Made by a program: the position numbers and the translations under genes | Part shown: in pieces, positions 282-26,285 of the stretch | Layout of the letters: each line of letters begins with the position of its first letter | How positions within the stretch are numbered: the stretch's first letter is position 1 | Virus record (IMG/VR): IMGVR_UViG_3300028299_000021 | Span: 1 to 28,538 of that record | Reading direction: 5' to 3' (one strand) | Length of the DNA: 28,538 nucleotides | Source: a virus | The notes under the pieces: generated by a model | Told to the model about the DNA's origin: nothing | The model's database searches: none | The model's input: the letters and a program-made list of their open reading frames with translations, nothing else

Positions 282-626
282 TTATTTATTGAATACTATG
301 AAAATGAATAGGAAAAGCGCTGCGCCGGTCCAGGCTGCCAGCATGTCTCTCCAGGAAAAGCCATCGCCGCCCCAGTTGTATTCGATCGGCCATCTGGTGA
401 TATAGCCCGCTTTCCAGGATAGCAGCCCATCCTTGATTTCCCAGAAGAACCAGAACAGTCCACTGATCAGACTGCCGATCACAGCCGATTTGCAGATAAT
501 CGCTGCCAATAGGGCCACAACGATTCCGCCCAGAAAATGCTGAAACTTGTCATAACTCAGGACGCCGCTTCCGGCAAAGCTAAATTCCTGAGATTTCCAC
601 TTGTCTTTGGCAAACTGAAATTTCAT
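282..626 (-). CDS. Small integral membrane protein following the DGR
   Basis: 114 residues with two or three hydrophobic segments (about 31-60 and 92-112) separated by a polar part with EIKDG and NWGGDGFSWRDMLAAWTGA. The DK-x-QHF-x-GG start, the central E-x-x-DG and the FSWRD-x-LA-x-x-G block resemble the DUF2279/YfiM-like or VanZ-like small membrane proteins, but I cannot make a firm family call. Its ATG overlaps the reverse transcriptase stop by four bases (ATGA), and a GAGGC ribosome site lies upstream, so the two genes are probably translated together. A holin-like or surface role is possible; nothing in the sequence decides it. Confidence 0.7.
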   Translation of the reverse strand: MKFQFAKDKWKSQEFSFAGSGVLSYDKFQHFLGGIVVALLAAIICKSAVIGSLISGLFWFFWEIKDGLLSWKAGYITRWPIEYNWGGDGFSWRDMLAAWTGAALFLFIFIVFNK

Positions 627-1642
627 GATAGCGCCTCGTATCTTAATACTATATTTGATAAAATATTTTTACGGGCATGATAACTCTGCGCCCATTTTGC
701 ATAGCCGATTAAACTCTGAACCGCGCTATGAATTTTTTCAAATGTAATCATCCCGTCTGAAAACTGCCGGGAATATTTCCTGAACTTTCGCTTGTTTTTG
801 ATGACGTTTCGTTTCCGTAGCAGTCTAAATTCTTGATACTGACGATAGCCTAAAAAATCGATTCCCTGAGACAGCGGAAACACTTTTGTTTTGCCATTCA
901 ATTGTAAATGTAATTCATCCACCAGGTATTTATTAATTTGAGATAGTATTTCCCAGAGCTGCGATTTATTATTTGATAAAATTACAAAATCATCCATATA
1001 GCGGATATAATGTTCACAATGCAATATTTCTTTTACATAATGATCGAGGCTGTTTAGGTATATATTAGCAAATAACTGGCTGGTTAGATTCCCTAATGGA
1101 ATGCCAATTTTTTGATGATTTGAATTAATAATTTCATCGATCAGCCATAATGTGTCCGGACATTTGATTTTCTTACGGATCAAAGATTTTAAAATATCGT
1201 TGTTAATTGAATAGAAATATTTCCTGATATCACATTTCAAAACATAAATAGAATCAGATCTTGCCCTGATAAAATTCTGCAATCGGGTAATTCCTTTATG
1301 AGTTCCCTTATTTACCCGGCAGGCATAAGAATCAAAAATAAATACCCGGTCGAAAATCGGCTCGATCAAATTGCAAAGCGCATGATGAATAATCCGGTCA
1401 CGAAAAGGAAGCGCTGAAATTAATCGTCTTTTAGGATCGGTGATATAAAAATCTCGATATTTTCCGGTTTCGTATGTTTTATTTTTCAATTCTTCAATCA
1501 AGTCAAAAAGATTAGATTCGCGGTTCAGTTCAAAGTCTAATACCGTCTTGTCGTAACGGTGACCGTTTCGGGCTTTATGATAAGCTCTTTCCATATTAGG
1601 ATATCTGATAATCTGTTCGAATAAATTTCCGTGTCGTTTCAT
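623..1642 (-). CDS. DGR reverse transcriptase
   Basis: 339 residues, a normal length for reverse transcriptases of diversity-generating retroelements. Catalytic residues are visible: D138 in LKCDIRKYF and the YMDD box at 215-218 (RYMDDFVIL). The motif IPLGNLTSQ (181-189) has Q where most group II intron and retron enzymes have P, as in the known DGR enzymes such as Bordetella phage BPP-1 bRT. It would copy the template repeat RNA into cDNA with errors at adenines, working with Avd. It lies just downstream of the template repeat, as in BPP-1. The ATG has only a weak ribosome site and overlaps the end of the reading frame running through the template repeat. The gene is visibly more AT-rich than the structural genes. 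Confidence 0.97.
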   Translation of the reverse strand: MKRHGNLFEQIIRYPNMERAYHKARNGHRYDKTVLDFELNRESNLFDLIEELKNKTYETGKYRDFYITDPKRRLISALPFRDRIIHHALCNLIEPIFDRVFIFDSYACRVNKGTHKGITRLQNFIRARSDSIYVLKCDIRKYFYSINNDILKSLIRKKIKCPDTLWLIDEIINSNHQKIGIPLGNLTSQLFANIYLNSLDHYVKEILHCEHYIRYMDDFVILSNNKSQLWEILSQINKYLVDELHLQLNGKTKVFPLSQGIDFLGYRQYQEFRLLRKRNVIKNKRKFRKYSRQFSDGMITFEKIHSAVQSLIGYAKWAQSYHARKNILSNIVLRYEALS

Positions 1643-1958
1643 AATATTAAAAGTTTGAGAGAGGCGGATTTTCGTCCGGCCCGCCTGCTGTTCGGGCAGA
1701 CAGCCGCCGGATTACCAATCCGCCGCCCCCTGTTTTTCCTTTTTGTCGTTAACTTATCGACATGGGTTGATATTCCTTTTAATACTGCACTGTCCGAACA
1801 TCCGTAAATATCCGGTCTCTGGCTTTTTTTAAAAGCGGAACGGAAACCTATATTGTTATTCGAATTGGTTACTACATTATTCATGTTCATTGCAAACAAT
1901 CCTGTATTGATTCCATTATTCCAATTTCCAGCCCGTAGCGGGACAAACATTAACAATA
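1643..1958 (-). ncRNA. DGR template-repeat RNA (TR plus downstream spacer)
   Basis: This interval lies between the avd stop and the reverse transcriptase start and contains the template repeat plus about 190 nt of spacer. In BPP-1 the equivalent RNA primes and templates adenine-mutagenised cDNA. The spacer holds GC-rich self-complementary pieces, for example GCCCG/CGGGC and GGATT-GGT-AATCC around 1680-1725, in keeping with a structured RNA. RNA ends are not visible, so the coordinates are only those of the gap. A 107-codon reading frame also runs through it (see findings). Confidence 0.6.
1831..1945 (-). repeat. DGR template repeat (TR)
   Basis: About 115 bp matching the end of the target gene at 2347-2461 (offset 516). 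On the coding strand there are 20 mismatches, and every one is an A in this copy: 10 A-to-G, 6 A-to-C and 4 A-to-T in the variable copy. The codons are rich in AAC/AAT, the usual DGR design. The 20 bases at 1831-1850, at the 3' end on the coding strand, are identical in both copies and are where the initiation-of-mutagenic-homing region is expected. Confidence 0.97.
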
Positions 1959-2297
1959 TCAACCCCTTTGTACAGATTTAATCCACCCTCCCAGCATTCT
2001 TCCTATTTCAGATAGTTTCTGGGAAAGAATTTCGTATTTTTTATACGGTAAAAAAGAAAGGTCTCTGGCTAAACGTACCTTATATTGCAATGTATTTAAC
2101 AATACATCCAAATTAAAAAGGTCCGGCAGTTTATTTCTCTTTTTATTGGCGATAATAATCAAAGAAATCATTTCATAAAAGTCTTTCCGAATATCCGCCG
2201 CAAGAATAAATTTCTCGCTCTTCGGAAAATACCGAAGAGCGATATAGGCATATTGCGTTGCTTCATATGTCTTTTCCAAAATTGATAGATCTTGCAT
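1959..2297 (-). CDS. avd: DGR accessory variability determinant (Avd)
   Basis: 112 residues from the ATG at 2297, which has GGAG six bases upstream; the longer frame starting at 2348 would overlap the variable repeat and is unlikely. The protein is all-helical and basic. It ends in IGRMLGGWIKSV, which matches the tail of Bordetella phage Avd (VGRILGSWIARV). Avd is a four-helix-bundle protein related to the S23 ribosomal insertion family. It forms a pentamer that binds RNA/DNA and the reverse transcriptase, and is needed for mutagenic retrohoming. It lies between variable and template repeats as in BPP-1. The call rests on position, size, helical pattern and the C-terminal motif. Confidence 0.9.
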   Translation of the reverse strand: MQDLSILEKTYEATQYAYIALRYFPKSEKFILAADIRKDFYEMISLIIIANKKRNKLPDLFNLDVLLNTLQYKVRLARDLSFLPYKKYEILSQKLSEIGRMLGGWIKSVQRG

Positions 2298-2319
2298 CAA
2301 ATACTCCAAAAACAAATTA

Positions 2320-4212
2320 TCAAGTGACAGATGACAAATTGCCAACAAAAGCGGAACGGAAACCTACACTGTCATTCGAATCGGTTACCACACCAGGCAT
2401 GTGCAGCGCAAACAATCCTGAACTGAGACCATAATACCAATGCCCAGCCCGTAGCGGGACATTGTTTTCACCTACATCCGGTTTGTAAAAATAGTCGTTT
2501 CCGTAATCGCCGGCACCTGCGCCGTCTGCTGCAATTAAAGCCAGTTTTTCGGCGTCTGCATCAGAATAAGCACCCGCCGGCGTAAAAGCCGTGGCATTTT
2601 CATTTCTAAAGACTTCGTCTGTTAAACTTCCCCATTCACCGATTTGCACCCACGGGGCGCCCGGCGCCGTAGCAATGTTTTTCAATTGCGCCGGTGTGGC
2701 TATTGCCGCCTCGTTATTTGGTATAATCCAGGCTTGTTTTCCAGTACCGGCATCCGGACTCTGTAGACCAATTATCCATTCCCAGATCAATCCATTCATA
2801 TCGAATATACCTGATATATCCAGATTGTGTGCGGTAAGCGGACCGCCGGATCCGGTTCTCCAGCGCCCGTAGTAAGGCGCCCCATAATCTCCTGCTCCAC
2901 TTCCGATTGTCAGGAGTTCATTCAGAACTGCGCCGGTAATTCCCTTTGCATCGATATCCTGCCCGTAGTTATTGTTGCCGCGTGGGAAATGTGCCAGAAT
3001 CGTACCCACAATCATCTGTCTTGTCCAGATTGCAATCGCCGCCGCCTCGGCATTTGTGACGGCATGAAATAGATTTTTATCCGTCCGCATCTGGGCGGAG
3101 TTTTTGGCCTCGCAGATATCAATTGCTTCGTTGAAGTTCAGAAACACAGCGGGATCTTCAAACGGCAAAGATGCGCCCACGGCATTGGATTTGTTCCAGC
3201 CGGTGGTATGGGCTGTGATGATCTGCCCGGTGGTCTTATCAATCGCTACGTTTTTGAATTTCGAATACCAGAATCCGGCATGTTCGACGCCATTCCAGAT
3301 AAAAGCCGGATGAACTACTGTGCTCGCAAATCCGTTGATCGGGTCCCAGTTAAACTTCGGAATGAAGACATATACTCCGGGTATGCCGTATTGATCGTAC
3401 AGAATTCGGTTATTCGGGAGATTGTTGTAAGCCAGAAGATTCTCGATATAGCCGCGATTTGTTATTATATCCGCACCGGTCACGTTTGATGATGATGCGA
3501 TAACTTTTCCATCAGCGTTGGACTCCAGAATGCGACTTGCCGTCAGCGGCAAACTTGCGGCTTCCGGAAGCGTGGGCTTATTCAGCACATTCGACCAGTC
3601 TACTTTTGAGGCGTCGATTTTTTTATAATCACCGGTCACGCTGCCGTTATTCTGAAAAAGTTGCCAGAGTTCAATGGTTTCATCAGCCAAAGTAATACTT
3701 ACGACGTCGCCCTTCTGGACGGAGCCGTCAGTCCATTCATTGGCGATATAATCCGCCAGGGTTGCCTCGGCAGATACAATAATATCGATAATAGCCAGGG
3801 GTGGAATCTGAGCTTCCGGTATTTTAGAATTTTCATCGAGTGTAGCCACGCCGTTCGCAGCGGCTCGCTGGGTCTTTGGAATCAGCAGACCCTCAGCAGT
3901 TCCCGCCCGGTCAACTTCATCTTTTAATCCCATGTCCAGAGCGTCAACACTGGCAGTGACCGATTCTTCATCCGTGACATAATTATCTTCAGTATAGGTC
4001 CGGGGACCGATGGCCGTCGACTGATCACTGATATCCGACTCATTGCTGTTGACCTGGCTGATGATGCTCCCAAAATTGGTATTCAGGAATGATTTAAGAT
4101 TGCTCCACCAGGAGCGTGGTACCTCCGGGAAATTACCCAGGGTGACCGTTCCCAGAACGAGAAATGATAAGATCATTCCTAAAATATTGTGGTCAAATGT
4201 TGGAACTTGCAT
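2320..4212 (-). CDS. DGR target: fibre-like protein with C-terminal C-type-lectin/FGE-like variable domain
   Basis: 630 residues. The N-terminus has a hydrophobic stretch (about 9-26), then RSWWSNLKSFLNTN shared with the left-edge gene, then a low-complexity tail-fibre-like region with the linker GVATLDENSKIPEAQIPPL. The C-terminal third resembles formylglycine-generating-enzyme/C-type-lectin domains (GLIWEWIIG, ending in GFRSAF). The variable repeat encodes PLRAGHWYYGLSSGLFALHM onward, ending in GFRSAF nine codons before the stop. Fourteen residues there differ from the template. In known DGRs this fold displays the variable side chains for ligand binding. Receptor binding at the phage tail is likely. 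The hydrophobic N-terminus leaves membrane anchoring open. Confidence 0.9.
   Translation of the reverse strand: MQVPTFDHNILGMILSFLVLGTVTLGNFPEVPRSWWSNLKSFLNTNFGSIISQVNSNESDISDQSTAIGPRTYTEDNYVTDEESVTASVDALDMGLKDEVDRAGTAEGLLIPKTQRAAANGVATLDENSKIPEAQIPPLAIIDIIVSAEATLADYIANEWTDGSVQKGDVVSITLADETIELWQLFQNNGSVTGDYKKIDASKVDWSNVLNKPTLPEAASLPLTASRILESNADGKVIASSSNVTGADIITNRGYIENLLAYNNLPNNRILYDQYGIPGVYVFIPKFNWDPINGFASTVVHPAFIWNGVEHAGFWYSKFKNVAIDKTTGQIITAHTTGWNKSNAVGASLPFEDPAVFLNFNEAIDICEAKNSAQMRTDKNLFHAVTNAEAAAIAIWTRQMIVGTILAHFPRGNNNYGQDIDAKGITGAVLNELLTIGSGAGDYGAPYYGRWRTGSGGPLTAHNLDISGIFDMNGLIWEWIIGLQSPDAGTGKQAWIIPNNEAAIATPAQLKNIATAPGAPWVQIGEWGSLTDEVFRNENATAFTPAGAYSDADAEKLALIAADGAGAGDYGNDYFYKPDVGENNVPLRAGHWYYGLSSGLFALHMPGVVTDSNDSVGFRSAFVGNLSSVT
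2347..2461 (-). repeat. DGR variable repeat (VR)
   Basis: Copy of the template repeat inside the last 38 or so codons of the target gene. All 20 differences from the template are at template adenines on the coding strand, giving changes such as N to H, Y, S, P, G and D. Both edges (AAAAGCGG and the CGTAGCGGGAC end) are unchanged. The unmutated end encodes GFRSAF. Confidence 0.97.
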
Positions 4213-4240: not shown

Positions 4241-4332
4241 ACCACTAAGGCACCAAGACACGAAATATTTTTTAATTTTTAATTTTGAATTTTGAATTCT
4301 CATTTGTGCCTTTGTGTCTTCGTGGTTGCCTT
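4241..4332. repeat. Family-1 interspersed element, full length
   Basis: An arm ACCACTAAGGCACCAAGACA and an inverted arm near the other end (GTGTCTTCGTGGTTGCC) flank an AT-rich centre made of TTTTAATTTTTAATTTTG-type sequence. It begins a few bases after the stop codon of the 4337-4765 gene and fills the gap before the DGR target. Related copies occur near 4779-4985, 8018-8168, 15731-15806 and 24434-24463. Confidence 0.85.
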
Positions 4333-4336
4333 ATCT

Positions 4337-4765
4337 TTATGTTTCACTGTCATCCACCATTGCTGAAGACTGGATACTTTTTTTGAACTGAGTATTGAAA
4401 TAATCCTTGAGGATGCTATCGATCTCCCCGATATAAATCTCCCGCTGCATGGCAACTTCCTTCGGACTGAGGAACTTAAACTGAGTATCGCCGATATTCC
4501 CCTGGTGACTGATGCCTCCGGTCAGAACCCAGACCATATTGAGCCGGGGCAGGGCATAAAAGAGCACAAAATAGGCTTCCGCCATTTTGAGATCTTCCGC
4601 CCGGTCCTCATTTTCCGGAGTTACACTGCCTGCGTCGGTGTAGATGGTTTCGCCGACAAGCTTCTTCAATCGCCGGGCCGCTCTCCCGGTGAAGGGTTCC
4701 AGGATGTCATCATCCACATCGGGAAACCCGCCAATGCCTTTGATCTGGATATAGCTTGTGATCAT
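4337..4765 (-). CDS. Probable head-tail connector/completion protein
   Basis: 142 residues, no clear catalytic motif. It begins MITSYIQIKGIGGFPDVDDD, then an acidic and helical body with RAEDLKMAEAYFVLFYALPRLN and a C-terminal helix rich in charged residues. In Mu-like phages the gene one or two places after the major capsid protein is the gp36-type head-completion protein. A short protein starting with a possible metal or helix cap and a conserved AEAYFVLFYALP-type helix fits small phage connectors. The family is inferred from position and size, not recognised directly. The stop is followed at once by a repeat element. Confidence 0.5.
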   Translation of the reverse strand: MITSYIQIKGIGGFPDVDDDILEPFTGRAARRLKKLVGETIYTDAGSVTPENEDRAEDLKMAEAYFVLFYALPRLNMVWVLTGGISHQGNIGDTQFKFLSPKEVAMQREIYIGEIDSILKDYFNTQFKKSIQSSAMVDDSET

Positions 4766-4778
4766 CGTTAATTCCTAT

Positions 4779-4985
4779 AACCACCAAGGCACCAAGACAC
4801 TAAGTATTTATTAGTATTCCTTTTGTGTTTTTGTGTCTTCGTGGTTGCCTTAAACATAATTAAACTTTGTGTCTTTGTGTCTTCGTGGTTGCCTTAAACA
4901 TAATTAAACTTTGTGTCTTTGTGTCTTCGTGGTTGCCTTAAACATAATTAAACTTTGTGTCTTTGTGTCTTCGTGGTTGCCTTAT
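4779..4985. repeat. Family-1 element followed by a 44-bp tandem repeat
   Basis: A full element (arm AACCACCAAGGCACCAAGAC, AT-rich centre, inverted arm CTTCGTGGTTGCCTT) is followed by further copies of its right half. The block GTGGTTGCCT starts at 4841, 4885, 4929 and 4973, an exact 44-bp period, with AAACATAATTAAACTTTGTG between. The array extends into the C-terminal codons of the small gene at 4948-5187. Confidence 0.95.
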
Positions 4986-5187
4986 CTTTTTCCCAGGTAT
5001 GGCAGAACACATCCCGGACTTCCTTGCTCTTGATGAAATCCCGCCAGTAAGCTCTTCGCGCCTGCCGGGAATAATGCATCTTCACCATCAGCCTATCCAG
5101 TTTCCGGATGAATTTCGAGGCCTTGCGGCCTTTGCGCTGGAAGTACCGGTACTGAATTCTTTTCCAGATGTTTTTCTGTGCCATCAT
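4948..5187 (-). CDS. Small very basic protein, hypothetical
   Basis: About 79 residues from the ATGATG at 5187/5184, preceded by GGGAAG; an in-frame GTG at 5211 lies in a palindrome and is less likely. The protein is rich in Lys and Arg (KNIWKRIQYRYFQRKGRKAS, KMHYSRQARRAYWRDF) and probably helical. It follows the major capsid gene on the same strand, where small head proteins are common. The last residues (KATTKTQRHKV) are encoded by the interspersed repeat, so the original C-terminus was replaced or extended. I do not recognise the family. A nucleic-acid-binding or capsid-associated role is only a guess. Confidence 0.5.
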   Translation of the reverse strand: MMAQKNIWKRIQYRYFQRKGRKASKFIRKLDRLMVKMHYSRQARRAYWRDFIKSKEVRDVFCHTWEKDKATTKTQRHKV

Positions 5188-8017: not shown

Positions 8018-8191
8018 AACCACAAAAGAATTATATATAAAAATACTTTGTGCCTTAGTGTCTTGGTGGTTTATCATTCTACTATCAACATTGAAACCAC
8101 AAAAGCACGAAGACCCTAAGAAAGAATTATATATAAAAATACTTTGTGCCTTAGTGTCTTGGTGGTTTCTCCGTATCATTCTACTATCAAC
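8018..8191. repeat. Family-1 elements in tandem with duplicated portal-gene end
   Basis: Two copies of the element's right part (GAATTATATATAAAAATACT through TCTTGGTGGTTT) lie at 8028-8072 and 8124-8168, 96 bp apart. The 17 bp ATCATTCTACTATCAAC, which include the portal stop codon, occur at 8073-8089 and again at 8175-8191. The whole 7955-8175 gap is therefore repeat; the 67-codon reading frame in it is repeat-encoded and not a gene. Confidence 0.95.
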
Positions 8192-10531: not shown

Positions 10532-12172
10532 TCATCTCAAATTCCCAAACACCGGCGGAATTCCTACAAACTTATTAAAATCCATCTGCATTAGGCGGAA
10601 TGCTTTCCGGGCGTTGTTCCCTGCCATGAGGTAATGGTTCTCCACCTGTTTGCGGTAGCGGGTAATCGTCTTGCCGGTTTTCTGGTCAAGCACTTCTTCT
10701 TTTTGAGCGCCCTTCAGGTGATGCTTGCCGAATTCACTCTCCACGACGTCCACACCATCGATAAACATGGGAATGATGATCCCCGCCGGTTTCATGGTAT
10801 AGAGGTCGGTGTATTCATCCAGGGAGTCATCCCGGTCTTCCTGCACGGTCCGGTATTCCGTCTCTTCGTGTTCCTCGGTTCCTTCGGAAAACCCGGTGTC
10901 CTTGAAATATTGCAGCACCACGATATTGGGAAAACGGCGGTAGAGTTTGCGGACTTCCGTCCGGAAAGGCTTGGCGTCGATTACAAAGCAGCGGCAGTTC
11001 ATGGCAATGATCAACTTCGAGATCACGTCCACCATATTATCTGAAAAGCATTTCTTAATCGTTACAAAACGGAGTTTTTCGCTGTGAACATCGGCAAAAG
11101 TGAGGTGGCAATAGTCGCCCACATCGGCCCCGCCCACCGACCAACTGGCTGAATCGGCCAGTGGATAATTGTCGGCTGCCCGGTGCAAATCATCAGCGGT
11201 GATTCGCTGGCGGTCGCCGGCGTCGGGAACGGCCAATGTGGAACAGCGAAATTTCGACAGCAGGGATTTCTTTTTCTGGGCCCGTTCCCAGCGCTGCATG
11301 ATCTTACCGAGTTGTATCTGGGGAACGATCAGCTGCGGTATCCGCAGACCGACCACCCGCCGGTCGGGATATTTGGCCACAAAACGCCCGTCCTTTTCCA
11401 CGTCAAAGGGCTTCCCGCACTTTGGGCAGGCATAATAAAACTTGCCACCATCAAATAAAACGAAATCCGGATTGCCCTCTTTCGGCCAGCCCTCTTCCAG
11501 ATTCAGATCGTCCAGGCCGCAATGGGGACACTTGATCAGCCAGACCATCTGGCTGGTGTCCTGGAACCCGGCGTCAATGCCCATGCCCGGATTCATACCC
11601 ACCGAGAAATAGCATCGCTGCTGAAAATCCGACGCCGCGATCCGGTCTTCCGACCAGGCCATATTAATGGCATTCAGAATATCCACTTCATCATAGCCGA
11701 GCGCATCCAGGGGAATGGATATTGCGTCGGATATATCTTCCATGCCGAGCATGTAGAGAAAATTATTGCCCACTTCCATCAGGCCGTCGGAAGTCGTGAC
11801 CTTGATCTGGCTGTTCAGCGTCCGGTCTTTCCGGACCGCAACCTTGAACCTGGTCTTGATAAAACGTTTGGCAAAAACTTTGGTCGGCAGCCCGTAGCCG
11901 ATATTATAGCCCCGCCCCAGCAGCAGCCACATGTAATAGCCCAGGAACAGGGTGGAGATACCGATCTGGGCTCCCTTCAGTATCCAGGCCTCTTCCCAGT
12001 TCACCAGGTTTTCCGCGATATAGCGGAAGGCTTCGTGTTTTTCAAAGGTGTAGGGACCGCGGTCATGATGGACGTGGTTCAACAAGAAATCCGTAAATGT
12101 CCCGCTCTGGATTTTGGAAACCTTCAGGCTCTGTTTAGATGCTTTTAATATTTCGTCTTTATTAATAACCAT
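10532..12172 (-). CDS. Terminase large subunit (Mu gp28/GpA-like)
   Basis: 546 residues. The ATPase half has a degenerate Walker A, KGAQIGIST (66-74), and a Walker B-like LDALGYDEVD (155-164). Two CxxC pairs (C215/C218 and C249/C252) form a zinc ribbon as in GpA-type terminases. The C-terminal half has D-rich nuclease-like segments, VGGADVGDYCHLTFADV and CRCFVIDAKP. The enzyme cuts and packages phage DNA into the prohead through the portal encoded next door. In transposable phages it performs headful packaging from integrated copies. Its ATG lies within a family-2 repeat, directly after the small-terminase stop. Confidence 0.92.
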   Translation of the reverse strand: MVINKDEILKASKQSLKVSKIQSGTFTDFLLNHVHHDRGPYTFEKHEAFRYIAENLVNWEEAWILKGAQIGISTLFLGYYMWLLLGRGYNIGYGLPTKVFAKRFIKTRFKVAVRKDRTLNSQIKVTTSDGLMEVGNNFLYMLGMEDISDAISIPLDALGYDEVDILNAINMAWSEDRIAASDFQQRCYFSVGMNPGMGIDAGFQDTSQMVWLIKCPHCGLDDLNLEEGWPKEGNPDFVLFDGGKFYYACPKCGKPFDVEKDGRFVAKYPDRRVVGLRIPQLIVPQIQLGKIMQRWERAQKKKSLLSKFRCSTLAVPDAGDRQRITADDLHRAADNYPLADSASWSVGGADVGDYCHLTFADVHSEKLRFVTIKKCFSDNMVDVISKLIIAMNCRCFVIDAKPFRTEVRKLYRRFPNIVVLQYFKDTGFSEGTEEHEETEYRTVQEDRDDSLDEYTDLYTMKPAGIIIPMFIDGVDVVESEFGKHHLKGAQKEEVLDQKTGKTITRYRKQVENHYLMAGNNARKAFRLMQMDFNKFVGIPPVFGNLR

Positions 12173-12197
12173 TAGTGAAATTCGCGTAATTCGTAGT
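12171..12197. repeat. Family-2 interspersed repeat
   Basis: Reads ACTACGAATTACGCGAATTT then CACTAAT on the coding strand. It fills the whole gap between the small-terminase stop (TAA) and the large-terminase ATG, which it partly supplies (CACTAATG). Other copies are at 15196-15212, 15258-15286, 17965-17990 and 24802-24827, all in the same orientation. Confidence 0.85.
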
Positions 12198-12722
12198 TTA
12201 TTTTATCTCTCTCTCTAAACTTTCATCGATCTTTTCCAGAATATATTCTTCCCGCTCTCTCAGCAGCGGCCCGATATCGTCATCCTCCAGCAGCACCTTC
12301 CAGATCACGCCCACAATCACATCCAGGTTGTTCCCGGCGGACTTCAACCCGGTATTCCGGGAACCCCGCAGGGCGTCGATATATTTCCGGATCTTGAGCA
12401 GCGCATTCACCCCGCCCTCGAAACTGGTGGGTGATGTTATTTTCAGGGACTTTGTAATCTGGTTCTCAATAACGCCCAGTTCTTCTATAAATTCCGTAAA
12501 GGTGGATATCCGTTTTTTATCCGCCGCTGTTTCCGCCCGGCGCTGGATCGCCGCCCGGCGCTCTTCCCAGTTGCCCTCTTTGGCCCATTGCTCCAGGGTC
12601 TTGCGGTTGAGTTTGAAATCCTTCCGGCGTTTCCGGGACATCTCCTTGATCATCGAATCAAAGGACAATCCCTGGCTGAAATAGCCGAATGCTTCTTCTT
12701 TGATTTTCTGGGAGTAGGCCAC
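12198..12722 (-). CDS. Terminase small subunit candidate
   Basis: 174 residues starting with GTG, which overlaps the previous stop (TAGTG). The N-terminal part has a helix-turn-helix-like region (FSQGLSFDSMIKEMSRKRR) followed by LNRKTLEQWAKEGNWEERRA, a pattern typical of phage small terminases, where a tryptophan-rich wHTH leads into a helical oligomerisation region. The remainder is helical (ENQITKSLKITS, VIWKVLLEDDDIGPLLRERE). It lies directly upstream of the large subunit. It would bind phage DNA and regulate packaging. Confidence 0.8.
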   Translation of the reverse strand: MAYSQKIKEEAFGYFSQGLSFDSMIKEMSRKRRKDFKLNRKTLEQWAKEGNWEERRAAIQRRAETAADKKRISTFTEFIEELGVIENQITKSLKITSPTSFEGGVNALLKIRKYIDALRGSRNTGLKSAGNNLDVIVGVIWKVLLEDDDIGPLLREREEYILEKIDESLEREIK

Positions 12723-13370: not shown

Positions 13371-13955
13371 TTACGATTTATTTATTTCAACCCGCGACAG
13401 CCAGCCGCCGGCAAAGGCTTCCTGGCTCGGGTCTTTTTGCATGATCTCCAGGTAATACGCGCCCTGGAGAAGATTCAAAACCTTATACAACATTGCCGCG
13501 CCCCTGGTCTTCAGACAGAGATGCAGCGCCGCGATCGACATTTTACCGATCGCCCGGTCCACCGGGATATCATTGTAGGTTTTTCCGTTGCGGTTCAGGA
13601 CATTCAGCGCCTTCTGCAGAAACTCCGCTGCCCGGCCGACTCCCATATTGACCGCCGTATCGAACAGTTCTTCCGCAATCAGTTGATCCGGTATCTCGTC
13701 GCCGTGAACTTTGTCCCAGAAGTTTTGTTTGTAGAATTGTAGAATCAGGCCCTGCAGGTCTGCATCGGCCAGGTATTGATTGCTGAAGCTTCCGGTTTTA
13801 TGCTTGACGGCGTCCACAAACTTCCAGCCCGGCCAGTCAGGATGTTTCCGCCGGGCAATACCGCAGAGCGTTTCACCGCCCCGGTCATTGGGGTCATTGA
13901 CGTATCCGCCCTCGTGGCTGAGGGTCTTCTCAAAGGCTGCTTCGAACTTGGCTAT
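13371..13955 (-). CDS. GH108 endolysin (peptidoglycan hydrolase), AUA start proposed
   Basis: The open frame runs from 13988 to 13371 and encodes an N-acetylmuramidase of glycoside hydrolase family 108: TLSHEGGYVNDPNDRGGET carries the conserved EGGY with the presumed catalytic Glu. A C-terminal peptidoglycan-binding region has AAEFLQKALNVLNRNGKTYN and VDRAIGKMSIAAL. No ATG, GTG or TTG lies in frame before GTG 13817, which would remove the catalytic half. The codons ATA GCC AAG TTC at 13955 would give the usual MAKFE start if ATA were ATG, and the result is 194 residues, normal length. A nearby ATG (13963) with an ideal ribosome site is one frame off and stops after three codons. Either AUA initiates or the gene carries a point or indel change. 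Confidence 0.85.
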   Translation of the reverse strand: MAKFEAAFEKTLSHEGGYVNDPNDRGGETLCGIARRKHPDWPGWKFVDAVKHKTGSFSNQYLADADLQGLILQFYKQNFWDKVHGDEIPDQLIAEELFDTAVNMGVGRAAEFLQKALNVLNRNGKTYNDIPVDRAIGKMSIAALHLCLKTRGAAMLYKVLNLLQGAYYLEIMQKDPSQEAFAGGWLSRVEINKS

Positions 13956-13988
13956 CTTCTCATCCCCGGTTCCTCTTTGATCACTGTC

Positions 13989-15195: not shown

Positions 15196-15286
15196 ATTAG
15201 TGTAATTAGCGGATCTCTCTTCCCAATTTCCTCTCTGTGTCTCTTCGGCTAAAAAACATTAGTGTAATTAGCGTAATTCGTAGTTA
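15196..15286. repeat. Family-2 repeats, two copies, with family-3-like sequence between
   Basis: ATTAGTGTAATTAGCGGA (15196) and ATTAGTGTAATTAGCGTAAT (15258, continuing TCGTAGTTA) lie about 60 bp apart. Between them CTCTCTGTGTCTCTTCGGCT is a diverged family-3-like copy. The second copy forms the end of the gene at 15268, supplying its last codons and stop. Confidence 0.75.
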
Positions 15287-15713: not shown

Positions 15714-15730
15714 CGTCACCTCTGTTAATG

Positions 15731-15806
15731 CAAGCACCAAAGCACGAAGGCCCAAAGGAATTAATTATAATATTTCTTCTTAGTGTCTTAGTGTCTTTGT
15801 GGTTTC
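15731..15806. repeat. Family-1 interspersed element
   Basis: Arm GCACCAAAGCACGAAGGCCC, AT-rich centre (AATTATAATATTTC), then CTTAGTGTCTTAGTGTCTTT and GTGGTTTC. It starts three bases after the stop of the gp16-like gene and occupies the gap up to the HTH gene. Confidence 0.85.
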
Positions 15807-15809
15807 TCA

Positions 15810-17951: not shown

Positions 17952-17964
17952 TTTTCACCTCTTT

Positions 17965-17990
17965 CGTGTAATTCGCGTAATTCGTAGTTA
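17965..17990. repeat. Family-2 interspersed repeat
   Basis: Coding strand AACTACGAATTACGCGAATT then ACAC, overlapping the stop codon of the small basic gene; the rest reaches the ribosome site of the holin (GAAAGAGGTG). Confidence 0.85.
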
Positions 17991-20117: not shown

Positions 20118-20312
20118 CTAGTCCTCAAAGTGCTCACACACATATTCCCCGTCCTTGATGTAGATGCCGTGCGGCGTCCGGAATGTCCCGTTTTTCAATA
20201 CTTCCCGGATGAACGGGCAGCCGTTCTCGAAGTCTTTCTCCCGGGTGCTTTTGTCTCTGCTGCAGAACACACATTTCCGCTCCATGAAATCCAGGAAATC
20301 TTCCCTTCTCAT
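20118..20312 (-). CDS. Small Cys-containing protein, hypothetical
   Basis: 64 residues: MRREDFLDFMERKCVFCSRD at the start, then GCPFIREVLKNGTFRTPHGI and EYVCEHFED. Four cysteines (CVFC, then single C's) suggest metal binding. Its ATG overlaps the MuB-like stop by four bases, so it is co-translated with the transposition genes. Several Mu-like phages carry tiny zinc proteins directly after B. Function unknown. Confidence 0.65.
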   Translation of the reverse strand: MRREDFLDFMERKCVFCSRDKSTREKDFENGCPFIREVLKNGTFRTPHGIYIKDGEYVCEHFED

Positions 20313-21688
20313 CGCCCCTCCAGCGCCGCATAAGCATGGCGGACAACTTCTTCATTCACCGGTATCTGTCCCCGGTCATAGGCCAGTTTGATCGCGTGGG
20401 ACGCCAGGACATTGATTTCCAGCGGCGTTGCCGACGGCATTTTCCGCTGCATCTCTTCCAGGCCGTCCTGAGAAAATAAGGCGTCCGGACGCCCGCCGGC
20501 TCGCTGGATTTTCCAGAGCAGGTAATTGATCGTGAAATTCTTGATCGGGCGCAGTTCCAGCATTTCGATCCGCGCCGCCACTTCCCGCACCCGCACATCC
20601 CGGCGTAGCTGAATTTCCATCTCCTCCTGGCCCAGAATGATAATCCCGATCAGTTTCTTGAAGCCCAGCTGGTGCTCGTGAATGCGCTTTAGGCATTTCA
20701 GCGTCAGGCTCGGCAGCCCGTGGCTTTCATCGATCAGCAGTACCGGTTTGATTCCCTGCTTGTAGAGCGTTTCCAGTACCGCCTGCACCCGTCGCGACGA
20801 CCGTTCTTTGTCCCGGGGCGCGTCCATTCCGCCCAGGTCGTTGATAATTGCCGAATGGATATGGTTCACATGCGCCTTCTCTTTTTCATCCATTTTGAGT
20901 TCGGCGATCCGGTAGCGGCTTTCCGTGGCCAGGGTCTCGTAGAGCAGGGTTTTTAGGGTGCTTTTCCCGCTGCCCACGGCCCCGAAAACTCCCAGGAATT
21001 TCTGATGCTTGGCCGCGTCCAGCATTTTCTTGAACACCTCGTCATGAGGGGTGGAATGAAACACGTCCCGCAGGGACTCCATCTCATTCCGGAATGGGTC
21101 TTTTTTTAATTCTAGCGCTGATAGGACTTCTTCATGCAGCATGGCTACTCCTTTCGATAATATTTTGCGAATTATATTGAGATTTTTTGTGTCGTCTTCG
21201 ACCATCTCCGTGACGTCTTCAAACAGATCCCGCCAGGCTTTGTCGATCTCCTTTTCCGGCACGTTCCGCTTCCGGAGATCCATTTCGATCAGCCGTTTGG
21301 CTTCGGATTTACCCGTTTTCCGGGGAAATATCTGCTTATTAATGATATTCGAAACATCGGCTTTCGTAAACCCGATCACCGCGCCCGCCAGGTCATTATA
21401 ATGAATGTCATAATCCTTGCAGATCTGCTTGAGATAAAACCGCTTCAGCGAATTTGTCCGCATCGTCAGCTTGGTCTTGAATAGCTCGTTCACCGGCACG
21501 GATTTTGCCTCCAGGTGTTCGGTGATCAGCCGCTCTATATCTTCCTGGCTGTGACCGTTCAATCTTCCTGTATTTATAAACATATGCAGGTCAAGATGAT
21601 GCATTCCCAGGGCTTCCGCCAGTTCGCTGCGGTCAACCCTGTATTTCCCTAATCGATTCTGAAGGATCGGGTATTTATCCAATATCAC
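20309..21688 (-). CDS. MuB-like transposition ATPase
   Basis: 459 residues. The AAA domain has Walker A GAVGSGKST (236-244), Walker B PVLLIDES (315-322) and a sensor-1-like block GIIILGQEE. The N-terminal 200 residues are helical with HTH-like stretches (RSELAEALGMHHLDLHMFIN; GFTKADVSNIINK), as in Mu B, whose N-terminus binds DNA. MuB chooses the target DNA, avoids Mu DNA (target immunity) and activates the transposase. It overlaps the transposase stop by four bases, so the pair is one operon. Confidence 0.92.
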   Translation of the reverse strand: MILDKYPILQNRLGKYRVDRSELAEALGMHHLDLHMFINTGRLNGHSQEDIERLITEHLEAKSVPVNELFKTKLTMRTNSLKRFYLKQICKDYDIHYNDLAGAVIGFTKADVSNIINKQIFPRKTGKSEAKRLIEMDLRKRNVPEKEIDKAWRDLFEDVTEMVEDDTKNLNIIRKILSKGVAMLHEEVLSALELKKDPFRNEMESLRDVFHSTPHDEVFKKMLDAAKHQKFLGVFGAVGSGKSTLKTLLYETLATESRYRIAELKMDEKEKAHVNHIHSAIINDLGGMDAPRDKERSSRRVQAVLETLYKQGIKPVLLIDESHGLPSLTLKCLKRIHEHQLGFKKLIGIIILGQEEMEIQLRRDVRVREVAARIEMLELRPIKNFTINYLLWKIQRAGGRPDALFSQDGLEEMQRKMPSATPLEINVLASHAIKLAYDRGQIPVNEEVVRHAYAALEGR

Positions 21689-23301
21689 TCCTGTTGAATT
21701 TTAAATTTTAAATTTTGAATTTCATCCGAAGGATGATTGTTTTTGAGCAGCTGGTTCTTGTATTTTTCAATGAATAATTCGGTTTCACTGCGCGGGATCT
21801 CCGGGCGGCCGGCAAAGAGTTGTTCCAGCAGATCGTCCTGGGTCGGCGTCACCGGCTTACTGAAGAGGTCTTCATCCTGCAGCATGCCAATTGCCACAAA
21901 CTTCGATACCATCGGGTCGATTGGCCGGGCCTGTCCGTCTTTGAAAACCTTGCCTTCCGGCACCTGGTAATCCGGAAACTCCGTCTCCTGCAGGGTAATG
22001 TCAAAATGCGATATGTCCGTTTCCTTGACCTGCTGCCGGAACTTCAGGTAATCCGGGGTCTGCACCGCCCGAAACTCTCCGGCTTCGTGCACATCCACCG
22101 GTGCATAGTCGATCTCATAATCCTTATTGTCCAGGATCAACCAGATTTTATCCTCGTTCTCCGGATGCCAGGCAATGTCAACCATCTGCTGCACATAGTT
22201 GATGAAGGGCTTTTTCCGGGGTAGCTGAAATGTCTTGCCGAATTTCCTGATCGTAATATTATTGTATATCAGGCCTTTGTCGAAATTCAGGTACAATGTT
22301 TCATATAGTTGCTGATCCGGGACCATCCGCGGCGCGCCGTCCAGGTTCGCCAGCCAGCGCACAAACGGTATTTCATCGGTGCTGCCGTGATCATGATTAT
22401 TCCAGTACAGCAGTTCATTCCAGAGATAGCCGTTCGCCTCTTCGATGGATTTGAATTTGATGATCTTGGTGATTTTTTCAAATTCCTGGAGGATCTTAAA
22501 ACCCGATTCCACCTTGCCCTTGGCCCGGCTTTTTCCCGGCATGTGCGTTATTACCTCTACCTGCAGCCTGTGCATGGCATAGATGAACTTTGTCGATTTG
22601 ACCACCGAATCGTTATCGGAATACAGCTTGTCCGGCAATCCGTAAAAGGGGAAGGCGCCGCTTTTCTTTCTCCAACCCCTGTAGAGAAATTTCATCCACG
22701 CCAGTGTATTATTGCCTGAAATAAATTCCGCGTAGATCACCCGGCTTTTATCGTCTTTGATCTGTGCCAATGTCAGCCGCGGCTTGCGGTTGCCGGGCCG
22801 GTTCTTGTTCACCGACCAGGCTTTTTCATACCCGAAACTCCCGTCGTCGTCCAGGTAGAACTGCTGGGCAACCGTGGTGTCCATCTGGTGCAGCTCGTTG
22901 GAATATTTCGCTTCCCAGTGCCGCCAGGGCTCCAGATCCAGTTTCAGATCCTTGCGGCTCATCCGGTCGTCCCGCAGGTACCGGCGAAATGTTGCAGCTT
23001 TAAAATCGATCCCGTTCAGACTGCCCTTGCGCACCAGGGTCGTCGCCGCAAAGTCATAATCCAGCGTCAGTTTTGCCAGTGTTTTGTAATCGTCTTCGTT
23101 AATCGCTTTCCGGCTGCCTGCATCCGCCCGCTTATCCCGCTCCGGACGCAAATCTTTGGTGTAGTGATAGATCCGGGATATATCCACATTGAAATCCCTG
23201 GCCAGTTTTTTGGCCGTTTTTCTGAATGGACCGCCGCTGAGTTTGGTGTCGATACACCGGGACCGGATTTCCTGTACGTCGTGTTTATCGATCCGCCGCA
23301 T
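21685..23301 (-). CDS. MuA-like DDE transposase
   Basis: 538 residues. The DDE triad is visible: D141 in LHQMDTTVAQQ, D229 in LYSDND and E265 in SRAKGKVESGF, with RNase-H-like strands between (DDKSRVIYAEFISGNNTLAW). The N-terminal part (IDKHDVQEIRSRCIDTKLSG, RPERDKRADAG) would bind the phage ends. The C-terminal 270 residues are the usual MuA/B-contact and beta-barrel region. It cuts and joins phage ends during replicative transposition. The gene ends in the AT-rich NLKFKIQQE, sequence that a dispersed AT-rich repeat supplies. Confidence 0.93.
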   Translation of the reverse strand: MRRIDKHDVQEIRSRCIDTKLSGGPFRKTAKKLARDFNVDISRIYHYTKDLRPERDKRADAGSRKAINEDDYKTLAKLTLDYDFAATTLVRKGSLNGIDFKAATFRRYLRDDRMSRKDLKLDLEPWRHWEAKYSNELHQMDTTVAQQFYLDDDGSFGYEKAWSVNKNRPGNRKPRLTLAQIKDDKSRVIYAEFISGNNTLAWMKFLYRGWRKKSGAFPFYGLPDKLYSDNDSVVKSTKFIYAMHRLQVEVITHMPGKSRAKGKVESGFKILQEFEKITKIIKFKSIEEANGYLWNELLYWNNHDHGSTDEIPFVRWLANLDGAPRMVPDQQLYETLYLNFDKGLIYNNITIRKFGKTFQLPRKKPFINYVQQMVDIAWHPENEDKIWLILDNKDYEIDYAPVDVHEAGEFRAVQTPDYLKFRQQVKETDISHFDITLQETEFPDYQVPEGKVFKDGQARPIDPMVSKFVAIGMLQDEDLFSKPVTPTQDDLLEQLFAGRPEIPRSETELFIEKYKNQLLKNNHPSDEIQNLKFKIQQE

Positions 23302-23315
23302 ACTGTTCCTTAACC

Positions 23316-24236
23316 TTAATTCAAGTCCTTATCTTCAATCTCCGGGATGCTCTCCATTTCCGGTTCCAGTCCCGGTACCCGGTATACCGGGAATCCCCGC
23401 CGGAATGCAATTTTTTTCATCACCTCGATGATCAGATCCGTCCTCGCCACAAATCTCGAATATCTGCTGTTGATCAGACTTTCAAACTCTTTCTCTTGCG
23501 GTAAGTCGTGAATATTGTCATTGAAATAATTATAGAGTTTATCCAGTGCATATTCGGCGGCGTCTACCATCTCCATTATCGGCAGAATCCCCGGCGGCAC
23601 CTGCAGCCGCGGATCGTCGCCCTTGAGCGCCGCAATCTGAGCCGATTTATCGCGAAGACCTATCTCGCTTTCCCGGAGTTTGATATTCTTGTCGTGCACC
23701 TCTTTCTTCAGCGTCGCTATCAAATTCTCCTGGTAGCGCTGCTTCGCCATGAATTCCGATAATTCCCGCCGGGACATACTTAGAATTTCATCCTTATCTT
23801 CGCCGTAAAATGTCCCGTCCGTCAGCAGGTGATGGATTTCCTCACCCGGCGCCTGCGCCAGTATCTGCAGCTTGCTTATCTCTGCCGTACCCAGGTCTTT
23901 CATCTGGCGAACCGTATATCCGCCGAAGGCTTCGCCAACCTTAGCCCAGTTGTACCCGGTGCTTTTGGATACTCCTATCCGGGTTTCGCAGATTTCCGCG
24001 AATGACTCTTCCGCTTCCATTGTCTTTATCACATGATAGGCTTTCGCCATTTCTATGATATTGTAGATTGCATTTGCGGCGCTGTCCCGTACTATCCGGA
24101 TAAAATATTCCGGGTTGTAGCGGGTCAGCCCACTGGTGTATTTCGCCAGGCTCAGGAATTTTTGTTCGTTGTATTCCCGGATGTCCTGGATTTTATTTTT
24201 GATATCTTTGTCGAATTCTTCTAAGGATTGTTTTAT
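23316..24236 (-). CDS. HTH coiled-coil regulator, first gene of the transposition operon, AUA start proposed
   Basis: The open frame continues 62 codons upstream of the ATG at 24050, which has no ribosome site, and the added region looks coding (IKQSLEEFDKDIKNKIQDIR; FLSLAKYTSGLTRYNPEYF). The frame closes at a TGA (near 24250), and no ATG, GTG or TTG lies between. ATA at 24236, eight bases after GAGAGG, sits exactly where a start is expected. The 306-residue protein has a central HTH (AEICETRIGVSKSTGYNWAK), a coiled coil and an acidic tail. It would bind DNA near the transposition genes. A mutated ATG or a sequence error is the alternative to AUA initiation. Confidence 0.75.
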   Translation of the reverse strand: MKQSLEEFDKDIKNKIQDIREYNEQKFLSLAKYTSGLTRYNPEYFIRIVRDSAANAIYNIIEMAKAYHVIKTMEAEESFAEICETRIGVSKSTGYNWAKVGEAFGGYTVRQMKDLGTAEISKLQILAQAPGEEIHHLLTDGTFYGEDKDEILSMSRRELSEFMAKQRYQENLIATLKKEVHDKNIKLRESEIGLRDKSAQIAALKGDDPRLQVPPGILPIMEMVDAAEYALDKLYNYFNDNIHDLPQEKEFESLINSRYSRFVARTDLIIEVMKKIAFRRGFPVYRVPGLEPEMESIPEIEDKDLN

Positions 24237-24240
24237 CTTT

Positions 24241-24410
24241 AATACCTCTCAATTTTTTTGTTCATAATATTTTCCAGCGGTTGGAAAAAGTTTTTCTCGT
24301 CGATAGAAAAAATACAGGTTTACATAATCTGGAAAAGTTATGTGTAATTGCGCGCCTGTTTTTAGTCTTAAAAATAATCTTGATAATCTTGTTATCATTC
24401 AAATTTCTCT
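24241..24410. promoter_or_regulatory. Leader of the transposition operon
   Basis: 170 bp of AT-rich sequence between the 24466 gene and the regulator. It holds short palindrome-like pieces (for example TTTTTCCAACCGCTGGAAAA) but no clear -35/-10 pair on the minus strand. An ATG at 24265 starts a nine-codon frame that ends before the AUA. I see no gene in it. Confidence 0.4.
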
Positions 24411-24473
24411 GCCTTCATCTGACTAAAAAATAATCCTTCGTGTCTTGGTGTCTTTGTGGTTGCCTTCATCTGA
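24411..24473. repeat. Family-1 half element flanked by a duplicated gene end
   Basis: The right half of the element (CTTCGTGTCTTGGTGTCTTT then GTGGT, 24438-24460) lies between two copies of TGCCTTCATCTGA (24410-24422 and 24461-24473). The second copy is the end of the 24466 gene including its stop codon, so the stop region is duplicated on the other side of the repeat. Confidence 0.85.
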
Positions 24474-24786
24474 ACCTGTTGACCTCCATCTTGATCTTCT
24501 CATGCTGATCGTGCAGCGCCTTCATATACCGGTAGCTCAGCTGGATCAGCGGCTGTCCCACGGTGTATTTCTTGTCCGGCCGGGCGTCCACCCAGCCCCG
24601 GTCCGTCAGCGTCTGCAGCACCCGGAAAACCTTATTCTCCGAAGCGTCGATCCCGTGATCCTGGCCCATCTTCGTAATCTCTTTCAGGCTCAGCCCGTCG
24701 AAGGGTACCATCTGGTCCATCATCAACTGCAAGACGTCGATCCCGTCCCGCAGCGCCTCGATTATATATACATTCTCTTCAGCCAT
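24466..24786 (-). CDS. IclR-type winged-helix regulator
   Basis: 106 residues. LSLKEITKMGQDHGIDASEN then KVFRVLQTLTDRGWVDARPD and KKYTVGQPLIQLSYRYMKAL match the DNA-binding domain of IclR-like proteins (helices, recognition helix KVFRVLQTL, wing KYTVG). There is no effector domain, so it is a compact regulator, possibly with the Ner-type role of Mu (repression of the early promoter). It lies upstream of the transposition genes. Its end is duplicated by a repeat. Confidence 0.85.
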   Translation of the reverse strand: MAEENVYIIEALRDGIDVLQLMMDQMVPFDGLSLKEITKMGQDHGIDASENKVFRVLQTLTDRGWVDARPDKKYTVGQPLIQLSYRYMKALHDQHEKIKMEVNRFR

Positions 24787-24801
24787 AAATTTCTCTTAAC
24801 A

Positions 24802-24827
24802 ATTAGTGCAATTAGCGTAATTCGCGG
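24802..24827. repeat. Family-2 interspersed repeat
   Basis: Coding strand GTCCGCGAATTACGCTAATT then GCACTAATT, starting at the TAG stop of the 24829 gene. Confidence 0.85.
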
Positions 24828-24828
24828 A

Positions 24829-25251
24829 CTATCCTATTAGCCGCGCTTTAAGTTCTCTTTCCTTCGTCTGCAGCTTCAGAATATCCTTCTGAATTTTCGC
24901 CAGCGCCACATACTCCAGCTCGTCGCCGGAAACAAATTCGCCGCCCGCCGCGCCGCACAGTAATACCATAGCGCTGCTGTCTCTGCAGACTATGCCCGCC
25001 GCGACGATCACATCCGCCGGCACCCGCACGTCGTCATGGCTCTCGGCGGTATAATTATCCAGCATCGACTTTGAAACTTCATAGCCGACCAGCTCCGATA
25101 CCTGCGCCGCTACCTGGTAGCGTGAGAGATCGGACTTTCTTAACATGCGTGAAAGCGTTCCCTTGATCTCCCCCTGGATCGCCAGGGACCCGGGAACTGT
25201 CTCGCTTACGATCGATAATTGATTCGGGTTTACATCTTTTTTACGCGTCAT
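24829..25251 (-). CDS. Mu-like phage early regulatory protein
   Basis: 140 residues. LSRYQVAAQVSELVGYEVSK and SMLDNYTAESHDDVRVPADV match a small protein family found near the early operon of many Mu-like prophages, where the pattern L-x-R-x-QVA-x-x-VS-x-L-x-G and ML-x-x-x-TAES-H is conserved. The rest is helical. It is thought to be a DNA-binding regulator; the exact role is not known to me. The ATG follows AAAAAGGGGCGAGAT. A 15-bp palindrome lies just upstream. Confidence 0.7.
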   Translation of the reverse strand: MTRKKDVNPNQLSIVSETVPGSLAIQGEIKGTLSRMLRKSDLSRYQVAAQVSELVGYEVSKSMLDNYTAESHDDVRVPADVIVAAGIVCRDSSAMVLLCGAAGGEFVSGDELEYVALAKIQKDILKLQTKERELKARLIG

Positions 25252-25653: not shown

Positions 25654-25756
25654 GTATTATTTACCTTTCTGTTATAAATAGACGGTTAAAGAAAAGAGTT
25701 AATTTCACACCATCCCCGGCTCCGGTATGCGGGGATCTGCGAAAGCATTTTTGAAA

Positions 25757-25809
25757 TATAAAAGAAAAGGCCCCGCAGACGTGAGGGTGACGCCACAGTC
25801 CGCAGGGCC
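25757..25809 (-). terminator. Terminator hairpin, copy 1
   Basis: GGCCCCGCAGAC pairs with GTCCGCAGGGCC (two mismatches in 12) around a GTG...CAC inner stem; on the minus strand the hairpin is followed by TTTTCTTTTAT. Copy 2 lies at 26121-26171. They bracket the two convergent small genes. A structured regulatory RNA is also possible. Confidence 0.75.
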
Positions 25810-25839
25810 GCAGAAACCACACTAAAAACAGGAGTAATT

Positions 25840-26095: not shown

Positions 26096-26120
26096 GATCT
26101 ATCCTTTCGTTTTTTGATTT

Positions 26121-26171
26121 ATAAGGAAAAGGCCCCGCAGACGTGAGGTAGGCGCCACAGTCCGCAGGGCC
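26121..26171 (-). terminator. Terminator hairpin, copy 2
   Basis: GGCCCCGCAGACGTGAGGTA then GGCGCCACAGTCCGCAGGGC, closely matching copy 1 (25769-25809). TTTTCCTTAT follows on the minus strand. Transcripts from the leftward promoter at 26286-26314 meet it before the first small gene, so it may act as an attenuator. Confidence 0.75.
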
Positions 26172-26285
26172 GGGGAAACCAATAATAAATGATTGTTAGA
26201 GGAGACTGTCTTTTTCTGATTCGCCATTAGCCTACCGGCGTTTCAATTGTTTAGTAGCTAGTTAGTACGATTTTCATCTTGGATT

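Follow-up and report, generated by a model that had tools for sequence, protein, structure and literature searches.

A putative AUA start codon in the gene preceding transposase A of a B3-like transposable phage

Features of the locus

The window, meaning the whole stretch of 28,538 nucleotides analysed here, is a virus record of 28.5 kb with MuA/MuB-like transposition genes, Gam, head genes, terminase, holin and endolysin. The gene under study lies directly before transposase A, in the following setting.

24466 to 24786, minus strand: IclR-like winged-helix regulator preceding the AUA gene (phrog_1368; weak Pfam HTH_IclR)
24239 to 24265, minus strand: out-of-frame mini-ORF, ATG AAC AAA AAA ATT GAG AGG TAT TAA, ending 2 nt before the ATA
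24245 to 24250, minus strand: GAGAGG, Shine-Dalgarno-like, 8 nt before the ATA (anti-SD duplex of -7.2 kcal/mol)
24234 to 24236, minus strand: ATA codon in the putative start slot (from homologue start positions)
24048 to 24050, minus strand: first in-frame ATG, residue 63, without a ribosome site and within predicted helix 42-73
23316 to 24236, minus strand: putative B3-ORF13-like (DUF3102-like) gene before transposase A, 306 codons from the ATA (synteny, profile match, AlphaFold2 model)
21685 to 23301, minus strand: transposase A, MuA/B3-like (phrog_310, 4e-25)
20309 to 21688, minus strand: transposition protein B, AAA ATPase (phrog_296, 1.9e-31)

An earlier note on this DNA had taken the gene for the first of the transposition operon, a placing that does not hold because the Ner-like gene (25251) and the IclR-like gene (24786) come earlier. 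Its description of the start region was borne out. The stop-to-stop frame (24248 to 23316, minus strand) comprises 310 codons, bounded upstream by a TGA at 24251 in the gene frame, and contains no ATG, GTG or TTG ahead of ATG 24050, from which a product of only 244 aa would be made. The 62 extra codons reported upstream of that ATG are exactly those counted from the ATA, and shuffling gave P=0.022 for the frame remaining open across them. GAGAGG (24250-24245) does stand 8 nt before the ATA (24236-24234), and ATG 24050 shows no anti-SD pairing (+1.9 kcal/mol), as the note had claimed. Pairing at 28 other minus-strand starts ranged from -11.2 to +1.9, with 11 of the 28 at or below -7.2, and by chance a Shine-Dalgarno (SD) sequence as good as that of ATA 24236 occurs at 4.3% of positions on the minus strand and, at a fixed place, in 1.3% of upstream intergenic shuffles. 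Most other genes in the window use ATG, again as described (27 of 34, with GTG/TTG in five and ATA in two). The start region is weakly folded, and RNA structure around the ATA starts showed nothing beyond shuffles.

Identity and relatives of the gene

The order repressor, Ner-like gene, IclR-like gene, AUA gene, transposase A and transposase B matches that of phages B3, D14F, phiSHP3 and Mae-JY22, in which the equivalent gene encodes a conserved hypothetical protein of 305-326 aa. The window protein matched phrog_1748 (1.2e-9), and the length of B3 ORF13-like proteins (about 290-330 aa) is reached only when counting from the ATA (306 codons), a canonical start being absent. No match to PF11300 (DUF3102) was obtained with the window protein at the Pfam cut-off; among relatives, B3 scored 26.5 bits (passing), L087 23.6 and phiSHP3 21.9. 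A sequence search of the PDB with the same protein returned coiled-coil noise only. Judged from position and profile match, the AUA gene is a putative member of the B3 ORF13 family (DUF3102-like), the conserved ORF of ~300 aa between the IclR-like regulator and transposase A.

Single-protein queries found no close relatives of the gene, transposase or terminase among viral contigs, nor of the gene among genome contigs, and a search for a second copy of the exact DNA pattern around ATA 24236 returned none in a collection that may lack near records. An alignment of B3-type transposases, used as query, fetched 160 transposase loci, and two more came from Calditrichota genomes; 141 loci, including the records of the four phages named above, carry a recognisable syntenic gene. 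The loci L170, L171, L086 and L087 are B3-like prophage transposition modules in Calditrichota and Chromatiales MAGs with transposase identity of about 40-45%, and represent a little-described branch of transposable phages.

Other features of the phage

A complete diversity-generating retroelement, consisting of reverse transcriptase, Avd and a target gene, occupies 623-4212 of this Mu/B3-like phage. Between its template (1831-1945) and the variable copy (2347-2461) there are 20 differences, 20/20 of them at template adenines. The left end of the record carries another copy (116-203) of the 5′ segment of the target gene (4059-4146), an 88-nt repeat (80%), and this copy is perhaps a second target gene cut by the contig end. 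Several further repeats were found. The dispersed repeat TTTGTGTCTTTGTGTCTTCGTGGTT occurs in direct and inverted copies (4303-4989, 8047-8178, 15729-15808 and 24421-24472), mostly intergenic, with one copy within the 229-nt gap before the AUA gene; it is rare in Calditrichota (1/40 genomes). A second dispersed repeat, ATTAGTGTAATTAGCGTAATTCGTAG, lies at gene ends or in gaps (12163-12198, 15250-15285, 17954-17989 and 24794-24829), and a 72-nt repeat (83%) with GGCCCCGCAGACGTGAGG (25748-25819 and 26110-26181) is located in the control region that separates the repressor from the Ner-like gene.

Position of the start

Starts were placed relative to a shared anchor, a column in the HTH-like core, with SD-supported starts taken for the homologues. 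In the 141 homologues the distance from start to anchor was 60-100 residues (5th-95th percentile; median 80), compared with 70 residues from ATA 24236 and 8 from ATG 24050. Against a profile from which the window was left out, the long form scored 54.5 bits and the form from ATG 24050 scored 40.6 bits, the match opening 31 residues ahead of that ATG. In the AlphaFold2 model of the 306-residue form (mean pLDDT of 85), a helix spanning residues 2-31 (pLDDT 87-94) begins immediately downstream of the ATA, and ATG 24050 falls inside helix 42-73, so that a product starting there would cut a confidently predicted helix. Given these homologue distances, profile scores and predicted helices, the short form from ATG 24050 is not the ancestral protein. 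Homologues starting at the position of ATG 24050, which the earlier note had named as a reason to abandon its reading, were not seen among the 141 syntenic relatives, whose N-termini agree with a start slot at the ATA. Sequence comparison and the predicted fold hence support the gene model and the position of the start slot.

The gene could alternatively be dying, the loss of its start codon leaving no useful initiation or nothing more than a truncated product begun at ATG 24050. Such decay would be compatible with the lack of an SD at ATG 24050 and with the normally weak activity of AUA; nevertheless, the frame is intact through 310 codons with its SD kept, transposases A and B and other genes are intact, and truncation would remove most of the conserved helix, all of which makes a dying gene very improbable.

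A second ATA in a start slot

The earlier note had also named the endolysin as a second gene with AUA in the start slot, and the comparison with relatives agrees.

13371 to 13955, minus strand: GH108 endolysin, 194 codons, putative start ATA 13955 (Pfam PF05838/PF09374)
13952 to 13963, minus strand: out-of-frame mini-ORF, ATG AGA AGA TAG, overlapping the endolysin ATA

No canonical start is present in the endolysin frame before 13817, and when relatives from Calditrichota contigs are aligned, their start Met falls exactly on ATA 13955 (IAKFEAAFEKT in the window, MADFNAAIVKT and MGEFDEAIRKV in the relatives).

Origin of the AUA codons

The 141 homologues of the transposition gene start with ATG (131), GTG (8) or TTG (2), and canonical starts are also present in the four nearest relatives (L086, L087, L170 and L171). 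With a canonical start in every homologue, AUA is peculiar to this phage, whether the change arose in its lineage or in the record. The reading of an AUA start is supported in part: the gene model agrees with the homologues, the profile built without the window and the predicted fold, and the codon is not conserved (0/141).

A change in the record would mean that base 24234 (and 13953) is really G, altered by an assembly or sequencing substitution, and that the genes start at ordinary ATG. The canonical starts of all homologues are in keeping with such an error, positions 24234 and 13953 would both represent the same G>A transition, and the record is a virus contig considered without reads. 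On the other hand, the 34 intact genes (7,871 codons) offer 570 sites at which C>T or G>A would create a nonsense codon against 34 starts, about 17-fold more, and none is hit, in a gene list that was itself composed of intact frames. Two hits would both land on starts with a probability of ~0.003 (0.056 for a single hit), and the neighbouring genes are full length. This 570-site test argues against random error or decay, yet allows one unlucky base, and a substitution error is accordingly regarded as unlikely.

A 1-nt deletion near the start, either erroneous or real, would shift the true starts to ATG 24265 (MNKKIER...), which the missing base would connect with the gene, and, for the endolysin, to ATG 13963. 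Each gene does have an out-of-frame ATG just upstream, and that of the endolysin has a good SD (-6.0, spacing 6), which is compatible with either ATG 13963 or ATA 13955. The relatives favour the latter, as their endolysin Met aligns with the ATA instead of three codons earlier. For the transposition gene, the SD of ATG 24265 is weak (-3.3), whereas the strong SD fits the ATA, and the TGA at 24251 in the gene frame confines the lesion to about 10 nt. With no other frameshift among the 34 genes, a deletion seems decidedly unlikely. The mini-ORF contains an A7 run, but slippage there was rejected, because the same TGA follows the run in the gene frame.

The two mini-ORFs raise the further possibility of translational coupling, in which ribosomes leaving a mini-ORF, 2 nt before the ATA or overlapping it, would reinitiate there. 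A mini-ORF is present at both ATA sites, with an expectation of 4.6% per site; the pattern is nevertheless post hoc, mini-ORFs also precede some ATG genes, such as the capsid gene, and in Escherichia coli translation did not resume at an AUA that lay in an AUAA junction and lacked an SD (PMC9955659). Reinitiation after a mini-ORF is therefore less likely than a direct, SD-led AUA start, and coupling is considered highly unlikely as the explanation.

Proposed weak AUA initiation and its implications

We favour, with moderate confidence, the reading that the 306-aa protein is produced by weak, SD-directed initiation at an AUA that changed from AUG in this lineage, and the endolysin likewise. The transposition gene has no canonical start for the full product, an SD at 8 nt and a start position consistent with its homologues. 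After the change of the ancestral start codon, the GAGAGG sequence could position ribosomes and initiator tRNA might read AUA through third-position mispairing with reduced efficiency. The outcome would be a low dose of the B3-ORF13-like partner protein, and the same would apply to the endolysin. This presumes that the base is real and that AUA initiates in the host, with the low dose being either a consequence or the purpose; low doses of a transposition partner and of an endolysin might be useful to a temperate phage.

No phage tRNA able to explain altered initiation, including an initiator tRNA, was found in the window. A code change of AUA to Met was rejected, because sense AUA codons align mainly with Ile/Leu/Val: those in the transposase align with six I, four V and no M, and over 39 columns I/L/V lead, with M outside the top seven residues.

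A stronger proposal is that AUA serves this phage, or the uncultured host, as a start codon in regular use whose low strength keeps two dangerous proteins at low dose and which gene callers miss. We regard this as quite unlikely. The absence of AUA from the relatives lowers confidence in a selected use, even though conservation is not strictly required (citZ of Staphylococcus aureus has a lineage-specific AUA). Were it correct, a systematic feature would have been overlooked by gene callers.

With gene callers restricted to ATG, GTG and TTG, 62 residues of this protein and 46 of the endolysin would be lost. If both are real, AUA starts in two of 34 phage genes would exceed known rates by far and suggest tuning of transposition and lysis at the initiation step in phages of this host. 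If not, the locus would be an example of one contig base mimicking recoding.

Comparison with known rare starts

AUA starts are already known and very rare, so that two in one phage would be unusual and no new kind of start. A survey of 61,358 ancestral AUG starts, limited by annotation, has no AUG-to-AUA switch in its list (PMC5622118). The AUA starts of infC, ccpN and citZ in S. aureus were found by Ribo-Ret and reporters, and with a strong SD to position the ribosome, the AUA reporters of ccpN and citZ reached ~10-30% of AUG; these genes have an extended SD, and the non-canonical start is conserved in ccpN and lineage-specific in citZ (PMC13009471). Such bacterial precedent makes real AUA initiation in the host plausible by analogy.

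Pseudomonas phage B3 ORF13 and phiSHP3 orf17 (phrog_1748, DUF3102-like) share position, length, HTH-like core and coiled region with the window gene, but start at ATG and have 15-20% identity to its protein. Streptomyces sigR is likewise a single gene in which translation is lowered by a rare start codon, with IF3-mediated repression demonstrated, but the codon is a different one, GTC (PMC5472188). The S. aureus genes share with the window an AUA downstream of an SD and a predicted weak, dose-limiting initiation; they are cellular genes with an extended SD, whereas those of the window are phage genes with a medium SD and a non-conserved AUA, known from their sequence.
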